A DNA stretch of 64,000 nt from Limisalsivibrio acetivorans (GTDB lineage: Bacteria; Chrysiogenota; Deferribacteres; Deferribacterales; Geovibrionaceae): contig NZ_ATWF01000001.1 in NCBI RefSeq assembly GCF_000421105.1, positions 1,871,407 to 1,935,406 on the forward strand, read 5' to 3'. Position numbers and translations under genes: made by a program. The notes under the pieces were generated by a model. That model searched no databases. It saw nothing but the letters and a program-made list of their open reading frames with translations, and was not told where the DNA came from. This document shows, piece by piece, positions 22,285 through 57,661 of this stretch (the first letter of the stretch is position 1; each line of letters starts with the position of its first letter).

Positions 22285-22426
22285 GACTGATACGCAACAG
22301 ACTTCCATGGATGGAAGCCCTGAAGTATGCAGCATAAAGGCTTTGCCAAGCGTAGCGCCAGGGAAATTCTCAGGATGATGAATTTCCCAGGTTATATGGA
22401 TGGTAAATTCCATAGATTAAATCAGA
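22285..22426 (+). repeat. GGATG-hairpin repeat, truncated unit (M4-M6b-M7 plus M6a fragment)
   Basis: This is the left part of the convergent gap between lpxK and the 22807 gene. Modules seen: an M4 hairpin CTTCCATGGATGGAAG (22302-22317); a shortened M6b (AAAGGCTTTGCCAAGCGTAG); a full M7 hairpin with arms GGGAAATTC and GAATTTCCC and loop TCAGGATGAT (22361-22388); then the right arm of M6a (ATGGATGGTAAATTCCAT) and the linker ATTAAATCAGAC. M1-M3 are missing. The module nomenclature is defined in the next repeat entry. There is no ORF. Confidence 0.85.
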
Positions 22427-22795
22427 CTAAGGGGAAATTTTTAGGGAAAACTTTCCCCTTAGAATCCCCTTAAAAACCCCTTTATCTGTCTGAATAATTT
22501 CCCGTCCATGGAAATTATTCTGCCGTTCGAAGAAAGAAGCTGCCTTCTCACTTACGCAAGCGAGCTTTCATCCATGAAAGCTTATGCTAATCACACGTTT
22601 GAGGTTGATAGGTAACAGGCTTCCATGGATGGAAGCCCCTGAAGGCGTAGCTGAATTGGGCTTTGCTCAATTCACGAAGCCGGAAGTGCGAGAGGGCAAG
22701 GTTTCCTTGCCCGAACAACAATGGAATTTCCATGGATGGTAAATTCCATACATAAAATCAGACCAGGGAAATTCTCAGGATGATGAATTTCCCAA
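22427..22795 (+). repeat. GGATG-hairpin repeat, complete reference unit (M1 to M7)
   Basis: The most complete unit. M1: AAGGGGAAA (22429-22437) pairs with TTTCCCCTT (22452-22460), loop containing TTTTAGGG. M2: GAATAATTTCC (22492-22502) with GGAAATTATTC (22510-22520). M3: AGCTTTCATCCATGAAAGCT (22563-22582). M4: GGCTTCCATGGATGGAAGCC (22618-22637). M5: GAATTG (22653) with CAATTC (22668). M6a: GGGCAAGG (22694-22701) with CCTTGCCC (22705-22712), then ATGGAATTT (22721) with AAATTCCAT (22741). M7: GGGAAATTC (22766-22774) with GAATTTCCC (22785-22793). The apices of M3, M4, M6a and M7 contain GGATG or CATCC. The 22231-22806 gap holds no gene. Confidence 0.9.
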
Positions 22796-23575: not shown

Positions 23576-23586
23576 TAATACTTGAA

Positions 23587-23746
23587 CTTATCAAGAGTGG
23601 TGGAGGGATAAGGCCCTGCGAAACCACAGCAACCGCCCGATACCCGGGAAAGGTGCTAAATCCTTCCCTGGGCGGGGGAGATAAGTTACCATAACGAATT
23701 GGAACTTATACAGCCTCTTTCCATCCCGGGAAGAGGCTTTTTTTTT
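23587..23746 (+). ncRNA. SAM-I (S box) riboswitch with intrinsic terminator
   Basis: The aptamer (23587-23685) has P1 arms CTTATC and GATAAG closing the structure. Conserved elements are in order: AAGAG.GG.GGAGGGA, GGCCCTGCGAAACC, CAGCAACC and AAGGTGCTAAATCC. Downstream, AGCCTCTT (23712-23719) pairs with AAGAGGCT (23731-23738) and is followed by a T-run to 23746, an intrinsic terminator. High S-adenosylmethionine would stabilise the aptamer and stop transcription before metY. The class is known for control of Met genes; the match here is seen directly and is strong. Confidence 0.97.
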
Positions 23747-28693: not shown

Positions 28694-28767
28694 AAAGTAA
28701 GTCTTGCTTTAGCACGAAAATACAGTATTTATGGTTAATTTCGAGTGTGATTATGTTTGGAAAAGAC
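28694..28767 (+). other. Short spacer with an element shared with 56334-56360
   Basis: This 74 nt stretch between the ClC gene and the first repeat module contains TGCTTTAGCACGAAAA. Its reverse complement, TTTCGTGCTAAAGCA, recurs at 56343-56357 inside the fourth cluster, in both cases beside M1 modules. No ORF or terminator with a T-run is seen. Confidence 0.5.
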
Positions 28768-28990
28768 TTAAGGGGTGCTTTTTAGGAACAAACCACCCCT
28801 TAACAACCCTTCAAAAACTCACGTTGTAGATAACTATTAAGGTTGATACGTAATAAGCCAACACGGATGTTGGCTCTGAAGGTGTAGGAGAATTGGGCTC
28901 AGCTCAATTCACGTAGCCGGAAGTAAGCGGAGCGAAGGCTTTGCCAAGCGTAGCGGCAGGGAAATTCTCAGGATGACGAATTTCCCAGAT
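28768..28990 (+). repeat. GGATG-hairpin repeat, unit 2.1 (M1-M4-M5-M6b-M7)
   Basis: M1 here has a different stem: TTAAGGGGTG (28768-28777) pairs with CACCCCTTAA (28794-28803), while the loop TTTTTAGGAACAAA keeps the M1 pattern. M4 has stem GCCAAC (28857-28862) and GTTGGC (28869-28874) with apex CACGGATG. M5 is GAATTG with CAATTC (28890-28910). M6b reads AAGCGGAGCGAAGGC (28925-28939) and then CCAAGCGTAGCGGC. M7 is at 28959-28986. M2 and M3 are absent. Confidence 0.85.
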
Positions 28991-28999
28991 ATTAATAGT

Positions 29000-29104
29000 A
29001 ACCTCCTTCTCACTTACGCAAGCGAGCTTTCATCCATGAAAGCTTATGCTAATCATACTAGCAATCTTTAAATGCAACAGGCTTCAATGGATTAGTAAAC
29101 CTAA
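29000..29104 (+). repeat. GGATG-hairpin repeat, M3 plus decayed M4
   Basis: A full M3 (AGCTTTCATCCATGAAAGCT, 29025-29044) is preceded by the conserved CCTTCTCACTTACGCAAGCG and followed by TATGCTAATCATAC. A decayed M4 follows (AACAGGCTTCAATGGATTAG), in which the right arm and GGATG apex are lost. Confidence 0.75.
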
Positions 29105-29107
29105 GAA

Positions 29108-29395
29108 TGCAGGGAACTTTTTAGGGAACAAAGTTCCCCGCACCCCTCAAAAACCCATCTAGAAGATAATAATTAAGGCTGATACATAATCAGCCAACAT
29201 GGATGTTGGCTCTGAAGGCGTAGCTGAATTGGGCTCTGCTCAATTCACGTAGCCGGAAGTGCTAGAGAGCAGGGTTTCCCTGCTCGAACAACAATGGAAT
29301 TTCCATGGATGGTAAATTCCATAGATTACATCAGACCAGGGAAATTCTCAGGATGACGAATTTCCCAGATTAATGTAAGGGAAATTCCATACATA
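29108..29395 (+). repeat. GGATG-hairpin repeat, unit 2.2 (M1-M4-M5-M6a-M7)
   Basis: M1 has a third stem type: GGGAACTT (29112-29119) with AAGTTCCC (29131-29138). M4 is GCCAACATGGATGTTGGC (29193-29210). M5 spans 29226-29246. M6a has stem GAGCAGGG (29267-29274) with CCCTGCTC (29278-29285), base-pair-preserving against GGGCAAGG in the reference unit, then ATGGAATTT with AAATTCCAT around CATGGATG. M7 is at 29339-29366. A trailing fragment GGGAAATTCCATACATAAAA ends the cluster. No gene lies in 28694-29410. Confidence 0.88.
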
Positions 29396-47682: not shown

Positions 47683-47976
47683 AAGGGGAAATTTTTAGGG
47701 AAAACTTTCCCCTTAGAATCCCCTCAAAAACCCCTTTATCTGTCTGAAGACTTTCCCATCCATGGAAATTATTCTGCCGTTCGAAGAAAGAAGCTTCCTT
47801 CTCACTTACGCAAGCGAGCTTTCATCCATGAAAGCTCATGCAAATCATACGTTTAAAGGTTGATATGTAACAGGCTTCCATGGATGGAAGCCCTGAAGGC
47901 GAAACTAAATTGAATTGTATTCAATTTATGTAGCCGGAAGTACAAGAGGGCAAGGTCTCCTTGCTCGAACAACAAT
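47683..47976 (+). repeat. GGATG-hairpin repeat, unit 3 (M1-M2-M3-M4-M5-M6a left half)
   Basis: M1: AAGGGGAAA (47683-47691) with TTTCCCCTT (47706-47714). M2 is partly decayed (GAAGACTTTCC with GGAAATTATTC) and has apex CATCCATG. M3: 47817-47836. M4: GGCTTCCATGGATGGAAGCC (47873-47892). M5 has a different stem: AAATTGAAT (47907-47915) with ATTCAATTT (47919-47927), fully paired. M6a is only its first half, GGGCAAGG (47948-47955) with CCTTGCTC (47959-47966), and M7 is missing. It fills the convergent gap 47630-47982, which has no gene. Confidence 0.88.
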
Positions 47977-55929: not shown

Positions 55930-56064
55930 CTGGGAAATTCATCATCCTGAGAATTTCCCTGCCGCTACGCTTGGCAGAGCCTTCGCTCCGCTTACTTCCG
56001 GCTACATAAATTGAATACAATTCAATTTAGTTTTGCCTACAGGGCTTCCATCCATGGAAGCCAG
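55930..56064 (-). repeat. GGATG-hairpin repeat, unit 4.1 (M4-M5-M6b-M7)
   Basis: First unit of the large cluster, in reverse orientation. M7: GGGAAATTC (55932-55940) with GAATTTCCC (55951-55959), apex CATCC. M6b: GCTACGCTTGGCAGAGCC to CGCTTAC. M5 has stem AAATTGAAT (56008-56016) with ATTCAATTT (56020-56028). M4: GGCTTCCATCCATGGAAGCC (56043-56062). Confidence 0.88.
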
Positions 56065-56075
56065 ACTGATCCTAT

Positions 56076-56297
56076 CTGGGAAATTCTTCATCCTGAGAAT
56101 TTCCCTGCCGCTACGCTCGGCAAAGCCTTCGCTCCGCTTACTTCCGGTTGCGTGAATTGAGCAGAGCCCAATTCAGCTACGCCTTCAGGGCTTCCATCCA
56201 TGGAAGCCTGTTGCGTATCAACCTTTATAAAAATCCCAAAATGGGTTTTTAAGGGGATTCTAAGGGGAAAGTTTTCCCTAAAATTTTCCCCTTAGTC
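56076..56297 (-). repeat. GGATG-hairpin repeat, unit 4.2 (M1-M4-M5-M6b-M7)
   Basis: M7 at 56078-56105 (apex CATCC). M5 here has GAATTG (56154-56159) with CAATTC (56169-56174), the stem of the reference unit. M4 at 56189-56208. After ATCAACC, an extra hairpin AAATCCC...GGGTTTTT lies at 56231-56250, then M1 with AAGGGGAAA (56262-56270) and TTTCCCCTT (56285-56293). Confidence 0.88.
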
Positions 56298-56744
56298 TTA
56301 TTTTTACTTAATTTAATGCGAAATTAGTCACTAATTTATGTGTTTCGTGCTAAAGCACGCCATACTTTTGGCGCAAAAGTATGCAAAACTATTCCCTCAG
56401 GGTTTTCCAGCCCCCATTATTACTCATTTATTATCATAAATTCGTAAGAGATGGTGGTTCCCTCATTTCACTCCTTTTTCACCTGAAGTTTTGCTGATGC
56501 TGAGGAGTGTAGCCGCTATTCACACATTCCAGTATTCAATATTTAGAACTACCTCACCTGTCACGTGCGGCCAAAACTTCCGGGCGGTTCCAAAAGAGCT
56601 CATTCGGCTGCAAAACATTCGGGGAAGATTAAGAGCTTTTAAGGCCAAATGAGTCGTTGGCTACTAGTCTTCCAATTTATGAAATACCTTTTCACGTCTC
56701 ACGTTGTTTTCTCTTGGGTGTAAACGTTAGAGCTACCGATTAAA
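56298..56744. other. Unique island inside the repeat cluster, no gene seen
   Basis: About 450 nt that do not match the repeat modules. It contains a palindrome CGTGCTAAAGCACG (56347-56360) and a perfect hairpin CATACTTTTG, GCG, CAAAAGTATG (56361-56383). A further stretch has two related boxes, AAAAGAGCTCATTCGGC (56590-56606) and, on the other side, AGAGCTTTTAAGGCCAAATGAGTC (given in parts: AGAGCTTTTAAGG and CCAAATGAGTC), which are partly complementary. No ORF of convincing length or ribosome site is present. It may be the remnant of an inserted element or an RNA; I cannot say more. Confidence 0.5.
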
Positions 56745-56818
56745 TATATGGAATTTGCCATTCATGGAAATTCCATTGTTGTTCGAGCGGGGGAGACCCG
56801 CTCTCTCGCACTTCCGGC
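56745..56818 (-). repeat. GGATG-hairpin repeat, isolated M6a with part of M5 linker
   Basis: ATGGAATTT (56749) with AAATTCCAT (56767-56775) around CATTCATG, the only full M6a in which the GGATG apex has changed (to GAATG). Then GTTGTTCGAGCGGGGGAGA: stem GAGCGGG (56785-56791) with CCCGCTC (56797-56803), a third stem type for M6a. The linker CACTTCCGGCTACG follows and stops. Confidence 0.82.
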
Positions 56819-56828
56819 TACGATATAT

Positions 56829-57048
56829 CTGGGAAATTCTTCATCCTGAGAATTTCCCTGCCTCTACACTCGGCAAAGCCTTCGTTCCGCTTACTTCCGT
56901 TACAGAATATGAAGCATAGCTCCATATTCTTCACTTCAGAGCCAACATCCATGTTGGCTTTATCCGCTTCAACCTTTATAAAAAACCCAAAATGGGTTTT
57001 TAAGGGGATTCTAAGGGGAAAGTTTTCCCTAAAATTTTCCCCTTAAAC
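56829..57048 (-). repeat. GGATG-hairpin repeat, unit 4.4 (M1-M4-M5-M6b-M7)
   Basis: M7 at 56831-56858. M5 has a third stem type: GAATATG (56905-56911) with CATATTC (56923-56929). M4 has the GCCAAC/GTTGGC stem with apex CATCCATG (56941-56958). An extra hairpin AAAAACCC, AAAAT, GGGTTTTT lies at 56981-57001. M1: AAGGGGAAA (57013-57021) with TTTCCCCTT (57036-57044). Confidence 0.88.
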
Positions 57049-57052
57049 TAAT

Positions 57053-57262
57053 CTGGGAAATTCATCATCCTGATAATTTCCCTGCCGCTACGCTCGGCAA
57101 AGCCTTCGCTCCGCTTACTTCCGGCTACATGAATTGAATACAATTCAATTTAGTTTCGCCTTCAGGGCTTCCATCCATGGAAGCCTGTTACATATCAACC
57201 TTTAAACGTATGATTTGCATTAGCTTTCATGGATGAAAGCTCGCTTGCGTAAGTGAGAAGGA
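57053..57262 (-). repeat. GGATG-hairpin repeat, unit 4.5 (M3-M4-M5-M6b-M7)
   Basis: M7 at 57055-57082 with one arm change (GATAATTTCCC). M5: AATTGAAT (57132-57139) with ATTCAATT (57143-57150). M4: GGCTTCCATCCATGGAAGCC (57166-57185). M3: AGCTTTCATGGATGAAAGCT (57222-57241), followed by CGCTTGCGTAAGTGAGAAGG, the reverse of the M3 leader in the reference unit. Confidence 0.88.
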
Positions 57263-57278
57263 AGCTGCTAATTAATAT

Positions 57279-57590
57279 CAGGGAAATTCATCATCCTGAG
57301 AATTTCCCTGCCGCTACACTCGGCAAAGCCTTCGCTCCGCTTACTTCCGTTACAGAATATGAAGCATAGCTCCATATTCTTCACTTCAGGGCTTCCATCC
57401 TTGGAAGCCTTTTACGTATCAACCTCAAATGTGTTATTAGCATAAGCTTTCATGGATTAAAGCGTACTACACATCAATCATTATATTTATCTTCAAAATG
57501 GGTTTTTGAGGGGTGCGGGGAACTTTGTTCCCTAAAAAGTTCCCTGCGTTCTTAGTTTTACTAATCTATGGAATATTCCATGGATGGGAA
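57279..57590 (-). repeat. GGATG-hairpin repeat, unit 4.6 (M1-M3 decayed-M4-M5-M6b-M7)
   Basis: M7 at 57281-57308. M5 has the GAATATG/CATATTC stem (57355-57379). M4: GGCTTCCATCCTTGGAAGCC (57389-57408), with one loop change that keeps CATCC. M3 is decayed (AGCTTTCATGGATTAAAGC near 57445). M1 has the GGGAACTT (57518-57525) with AAGTTCCC (57537-57544) stem. A fragment TATGGAATATTCCATGGATG follows to 57590. The rest up to uvrD at 57662 shows nothing recognisable. Confidence 0.86.
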
Positions 57591-57661
57591 TGTATTCAGA
57601 TAGATTGTGGGTGGTTTGTTCCCAAAAAAGCATCCCTTACGTATATCCTAATACTGCAATT

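Follow-up and report, generated by a model that had tools for sequence, protein, structure and literature searches.

The question raised by this locus is what the repeat array at 55932-57639 of the window represents, the window being the whole stretch of 64,000 nucleotides that was analysed (C1:1871407-1935406 of G000, the genome of Limisalsivibrio acetivorans). An earlier note on this DNA had pictured the array as a hot spot for insertion or a nested set of insertions, interrupted by about 450 nt that match no repeat module. From our point of view, it is likely that the array belongs to a species-wide family of modular intergenic mosaic repeats, non-coding and rich in hairpins, of which it forms one cluster; in this reading we include the model of spread and exchange set out below.

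Units of the array

The array consists of six units on the same strand, five led by module A and one of the H-h type, which are followed by terminal fragments. Unit 1 (A a B1 C1; 55932-56062, plus strand, as for all that follow) has the usual AATCT just before it. Unit 2 (A a B3 C1 E1 F f g i j k; 56078-56737) is nearly full length and, running from A through k, is the longest unit of the array. Behind it lie unit 3 (H h; 56748-56821), which carries the variable-stem hairpin GAGCGGG..CCCGCTC, unit 4 (A a B2 C2 E1; 56831-57042), unit 5 (A a B1 C1 D d; 57055-57265) and unit 6 (A a B2 C1 D e E2; 57281-57547), the last of which is chimeric with a switch at about 57384-57389. A terminal H fragment (57568-57591) and then an E3-like fragment, which ends at 57639, complete the array.

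The head-to-tail arrangement of six units on one strand, as described in the earlier note, is thus correct, but its label of minus orientation came from using the opposite strand for naming, since the units read from H or A to k on the plus strand. That the other three clusters of the window (at 22.3, 28.7 and 47.7 kb) are oriented oppositely to the array was borne out: they lie on the minus strand at 22288-22793 (A H h B3 C1 D d Hx E1 H A a C1), 28694-29366 (A H h B3 C2 E2 C1 D d A a B3 C2 E3 f) and 47685-47973 (h B1 C1 D d Hx E1). A SAM riboswitch (Rfam RF00162) is also found in the window, at 23585-23687.

The reported alternation of alleles along the array (AAATTGAAT, GAATTG, GAATATG, GAATTGAAT, GAATATG) is confirmed as well and corresponds to the slot B series B1, B3, B2, B1, B2. 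The claim that the units are not simple recent tandem copies holds for most of them, as neighbouring units share only 62-90% identity. It does not hold for the two units with allele B2 (at 56.83 and 57.28 kb), which are 97% alike over about 120 nt and therefore point to one fairly recent copy within the array.

A genome-wide family with a fixed slot order

For the 2.97 Mb genome, which is assembled in three contigs, the loci around matches were fetched and their modules marked by BLAST with a hand-built library of the repeats seen in the data. This yielded at least 59 intergenic clusters that span about 69 kb including inserted IS copies, or about 2% of the genome, with cluster lengths of about 0.2-1.7 kb when the IS are left aside. 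The 28-nt A hairpin occurs nine times in the window, where none is expected. Genome-wide there are 77 copies, and the reversed control has none.

The modules follow the rule [A or H]-[a or h]-[B1-5]-[C1 or C2]-[D, then d-Hx, e or e2]-[E1-4]-[F-f-g-i-j-k], after which the next unit starts again from A or H. Each slot is optional and most have several alleles. This order is kept in 1012 of 1027 same-strand neighbour pairs, namely 867 forward steps and 145 A/H restarts, and only 15 pairs violate it, whereas shuffling the tokens within clusters left a minimum of 315 violations.

It is this rule that settles the nature of the supposed unique core. A query from 56298-56744 matched many loci of the same genome at 84-92% identity, and the stretch can be assigned to the block F-f-g-i-j-k of unit 2, whose modules have between 23 and 41 copies genome-wide (F 41, g 38, i 31, j 29, k 23). 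As these modules are recurrent and stand in their normal place, after E1 and ahead of the next H/A start, the stretch neither lacks module matches nor interrupts the array, and the two statements to that effect have to be withdrawn. At three other loci (L034, L043, L053) a separate allele of the F-k block (g-i-j) was observed, in which the stems are rewritten yet complementary. Two contig ends (L014 and L054; C1:1-770 and C2:584900-585535 of G000) furthermore have one and the same mosaic cluster in common, so that the repeats of this family appear to break the genome assembly.

Exchange of module blocks between loci

Alleles of adjacent slots are associated, with V falling from 0.77 (slots 1-2) to 0.59 (slots 2-3) and 0.44 (slots 3-4), values that are somewhat inflated because tandem copies were counted among the units; for distant slots the association is non-significant. 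Different loci have 367 blocks in common (at least 80 nt, at least 96% identity), which tend to end where slot B, C or D begins. Two units of the array are themselves chimeric. In unit 5, B1-C1-D-d (57116-57266) is 98.7% identical to 47792-47942, while the preceding module is a here and h there. Unit 6 is 99.1% identical to L049 to the left of its switch and 97% identical to L041 in the right part, of which 57436-57548 is 99.1% identical to L047. The chimeric units and the blocks common to several loci demonstrate that module blocks have been exchanged between loci, and the presumed route of this exchange leads through the constant linkers between slots, by either homologous recombination or gene conversion.

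Some clusters also show plain tandem amplification. Internal repeats of at least 95% identity are present in 18 clusters, for example 416 nt repeated three times in L047 and 249 nt repeated four times in L065. One could therefore think of a degraded tandem satellite, in which an ancestral full-length unit was amplified at many loci, the copies were then eroded by deletions, and the loci no longer exchange sequence with one another. The fixed order with missing slots and the amplification just described would be in line with such a history, but the two halves of a single unit can be closest to different loci, with identities of 97-99%, and the alleles of distant slots are independent of each other. 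The chimeric units in particular make a degraded satellite quite improbable.

Conserved loops, variable stems and gene context

Hairpin A has the form GGGAAATTC-N-TCATCCTGAG-AATTTCCC, and the module can also be written as GGGAAATTC-loop-GAATTTCCC. Among 37 distinct copies of module h, 95.9% of the pairs are kept, with low scores when the pairing was slid, and cells with changes on both sides are more numerous than in shuffles (45 vs 16; 0/500). Likewise, hairpins with a GGATG/CATCC loop come with many unrelated, self-matching stems, both in this genome and in the sister genus. The loops are hence conserved, whereas the stems vary in such a way that a change in one arm is matched in the other. 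In the F-k block a long-range helix holds its pairing through three double changes, which may represent a single event (n=3), because the copies that carry them are related.

Such covariation alone cannot distinguish selection on a hairpin from mutational correction of one arm by the other. Structured non-coding RNAs, or 3' UTR or terminator modules under selection for RNA structure, might produce it too, and the location of the clusters 3' of genes and between convergent pairs would suit them. Of 56 clusters, 27 have convergent genes on either side, compared with 14 among 136 other gaps that measure 60 nt or more (p 3e-8), and the clusters avoid divergent gaps (p 9e-4). This placement is in line with the mosaic-repeat reading as well. 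Several clusters adjoin intrinsic terminators, as judged by eye. Module E, moreover, resembles a bidirectional terminator. Against this reading, however, terminator-like sites were no more frequent than in shuffles, the search of the array against Rfam returned no family at gathering score, and the slot content varies among copies to an extreme degree, which speaks against a single RNA function. Also, the mismatched cells show no excess of G-U wobble and so lend no support to a constraint at the RNA level; in these small counts, 11 of 66 are GT and 20 AC in this genome, and 0 vs 3 in the sister genus. DNA hairpins or mutational palindrome correction fit these few cells as well or better, and we regard an RNA or terminator function as an unlikely explanation for the arrays. 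Most likely, the present array serves neither pcrA nor the neighbouring gene in any specific way, except that it may reinforce the termination of transcription.

Borders and insertion sequences

The left borders of the units are uniform, with ..TTAATCT followed by GGGAAATTC or ..TGATTTAATCT followed by ATGGAATTT. On the right, many borders consist of an inverted A or H hairpin (A!/H!), which resembles a terminal inverted repeat, and many other right ends are without one. Short target duplications, which the earlier note had considered as a possible sign of insertion, were not evident by eye in the listed cluster flanks.

Two IS30-type elements are present in the genome with 11 and 5 copies, of which 6 and 4, respectively, lie inside mosaic clusters. 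With 10 of 16 copies on about 2% of the genome (binomial ~3e-13), the family is a hot spot for IS30-type insertion. The insertions are found at the f/g junction (L041, L049, L050, L026) and in specific palindromes of the modules (L016, L022, L034, L049, L053, L068), and one of the two elements splits the f/g palindrome in every copy within a cluster. The idea of an insertion hot spot thus proved right for the family but not for the array itself, as no IS copy resides within 55932-57639. A hot spot at which independent mobile elements landed one after another or inside each other, as originally envisaged, could account for the attraction of the two IS30-type elements and for the fixed border at unit starts. 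Yet the slots are collinear, with 15 violations in 1027 pairs, the supposedly foreign core is made up of slots that are usual for the family, and the array is devoid of IS, so that nested insertions are contradicted for this array and we consider an origin of this kind very unlikely.

The ends of the IS30-type elements differ from those of the repeat units, and no transposase with ends matching the units was found. RAYT/Y1 transposases (PF01797) were detected in control genomes but in none of the genomes of this species and the sister genus, and the enzyme that moves the units is probably not a RAYT.

Relation to known repeats and proposed mechanism

Mosaic arrays of short intergenic repeats are known from several bacteria. 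The Neisseria intergenic mosaic elements (NIMEs), composed of alternating dRS3 and RS repeats, are intergenic arrays of mixed short palindromes of 200-2700 bp that occur many times per genome, in a genome that also holds IS30-family elements (PMC3898611). The clusters described here are likewise intergenic mosaic arrays within the range of 0.2-2.7 kb, but they differ in having a left border that is fixed and as many as 14 slots, with alleles, in a set order. Also in contrast to NIMEs, the dRS3 sequence ATTCCC-N8-GGGAAT is not the module here, module A being GGGAAATTC-loop-GAATTTCCC, and no link to a phage integrase is known here.

The BOX elements of Streptococcus pneumoniae are modular composites whose end modules are defined and whose interior varies, and they are predicted to fold strongly (PMC3049150). 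They comprise three modules (A, Bn, C) and show target duplications and an end like that of ISSpn2. With BOX, the present family has in common a fixed left end, here A or H, and a variable interior, as reflected in 145 A/H restarts against 15 violations. It is unlike BOX in having many more ordered slots with alternative alleles, and neither a target duplication (by eye) nor an IS match was found.

BIMEs and REPs of the GTAG and CGTC superfamilies are extragenic palindromes 3' of genes that form mosaic clusters, and the CGTC REPs are without a dedicated transposase (PMC3733652). Extragenic palindromes in mosaic clusters are also what we find, but in contrast to REP/RAYT systems there is no Y1/RAYT gene, the ordered units measure hundreds of nucleotides and what stays constant is the loop (CATCC/GGATG) rather than an unpaired tag. 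CGTC REPs have a stem of 8-9 bp, a loop of 4-5 nt and an unpaired terminal CGTC, whereas hairpin A has CATCC inside a loop region of 8-10 nt, with the variants ATCA, GTCA and TTCA and no terminal CGTC tag. Since at least one tested defining feature failed for REP/RAYT, CGTC-REP and NIME alike, we assign the repeats to none of these. They are a new, unusually well-ordered family of mosaic intergenic repeats of the BIME/NIME/BOX type. While such repeats are usually described as loose mixtures, the order here is strict and can be scored slot by slot, and because the sites of exchange are visible, the family offers a clean system for measuring array formation, recombination and the attraction of IS. 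In the open-access literature, no description of such repeats in this host group was found.

We imagine that a unit with a fixed left end (an AATCT-type border plus hairpin A or H) and up to about 12 further ordered, optional modules would behave as non-autonomous mobile DNA. Its landing or survival may be favoured downstream of genes and beside terminators. Once established, a cluster would grow through duplication, swap modules by recombination in the linkers and lose 3' modules via deletion between similar hairpins.

Distribution in relatives

The genus is represented by a single genome, and the nearest relatives compared belong to other genera of the same family; on this basis, neither an empty site nor a fresh insertion came to light. 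A DNA search in these relatives did not recover the repeats, save for one solitary A-like hairpin in G001. The A core was present in only three other records of genome_contigs, two of them apparently by chance and one a MAG of the sister genus. Exact matches to the A hairpin in viral contigs numbered zero, and a phage origin was therefore rejected.

The closest sister genus (G001, G004, G007) has a family of its own, with about 51-89 matches per genome that are often in tandem (L094 4196-4666, 5270-5475 and 10768-11126, L096 1171-1635, including tandem arrays). Its plan comprises a hairpin with a CATCC-type loop, a core with a variable, matched stem and a second hairpin. The two families cannot be aligned overall, as the repeats of the sister genus have no DNA match in G000, and the sister-genus family has far fewer slots, yet a common ancestry is plausible. 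With this divergent counterpart it becomes possible to examine what selection or mutation retains, namely loops and complementarity rather than sequence. One could go further and speculate that loop, complementarity and slot order are kept and stems freely rewritten in at least two genera, either by a machine other than Y1/RAYT that reads the loop or shape of single-stranded DNA hairpins or by palindrome correction through template switching, and that combinatorial module swapping is the normal way of evolution for these repeats; at present, we rate this full scenario as doubtful.

Gene order at the pcrA locus differs in all relatives. In two of the three sister-genus species an E-like hairpin module is located 3' of pcrA, before gatC (L074, L076), and the third species is without it. 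Orthologues of the flavodoxin locus are lacking in the sister genus. Finally, a conserved tail, TATCAACCTTA, is common to this species and the sister genus at one locus only.
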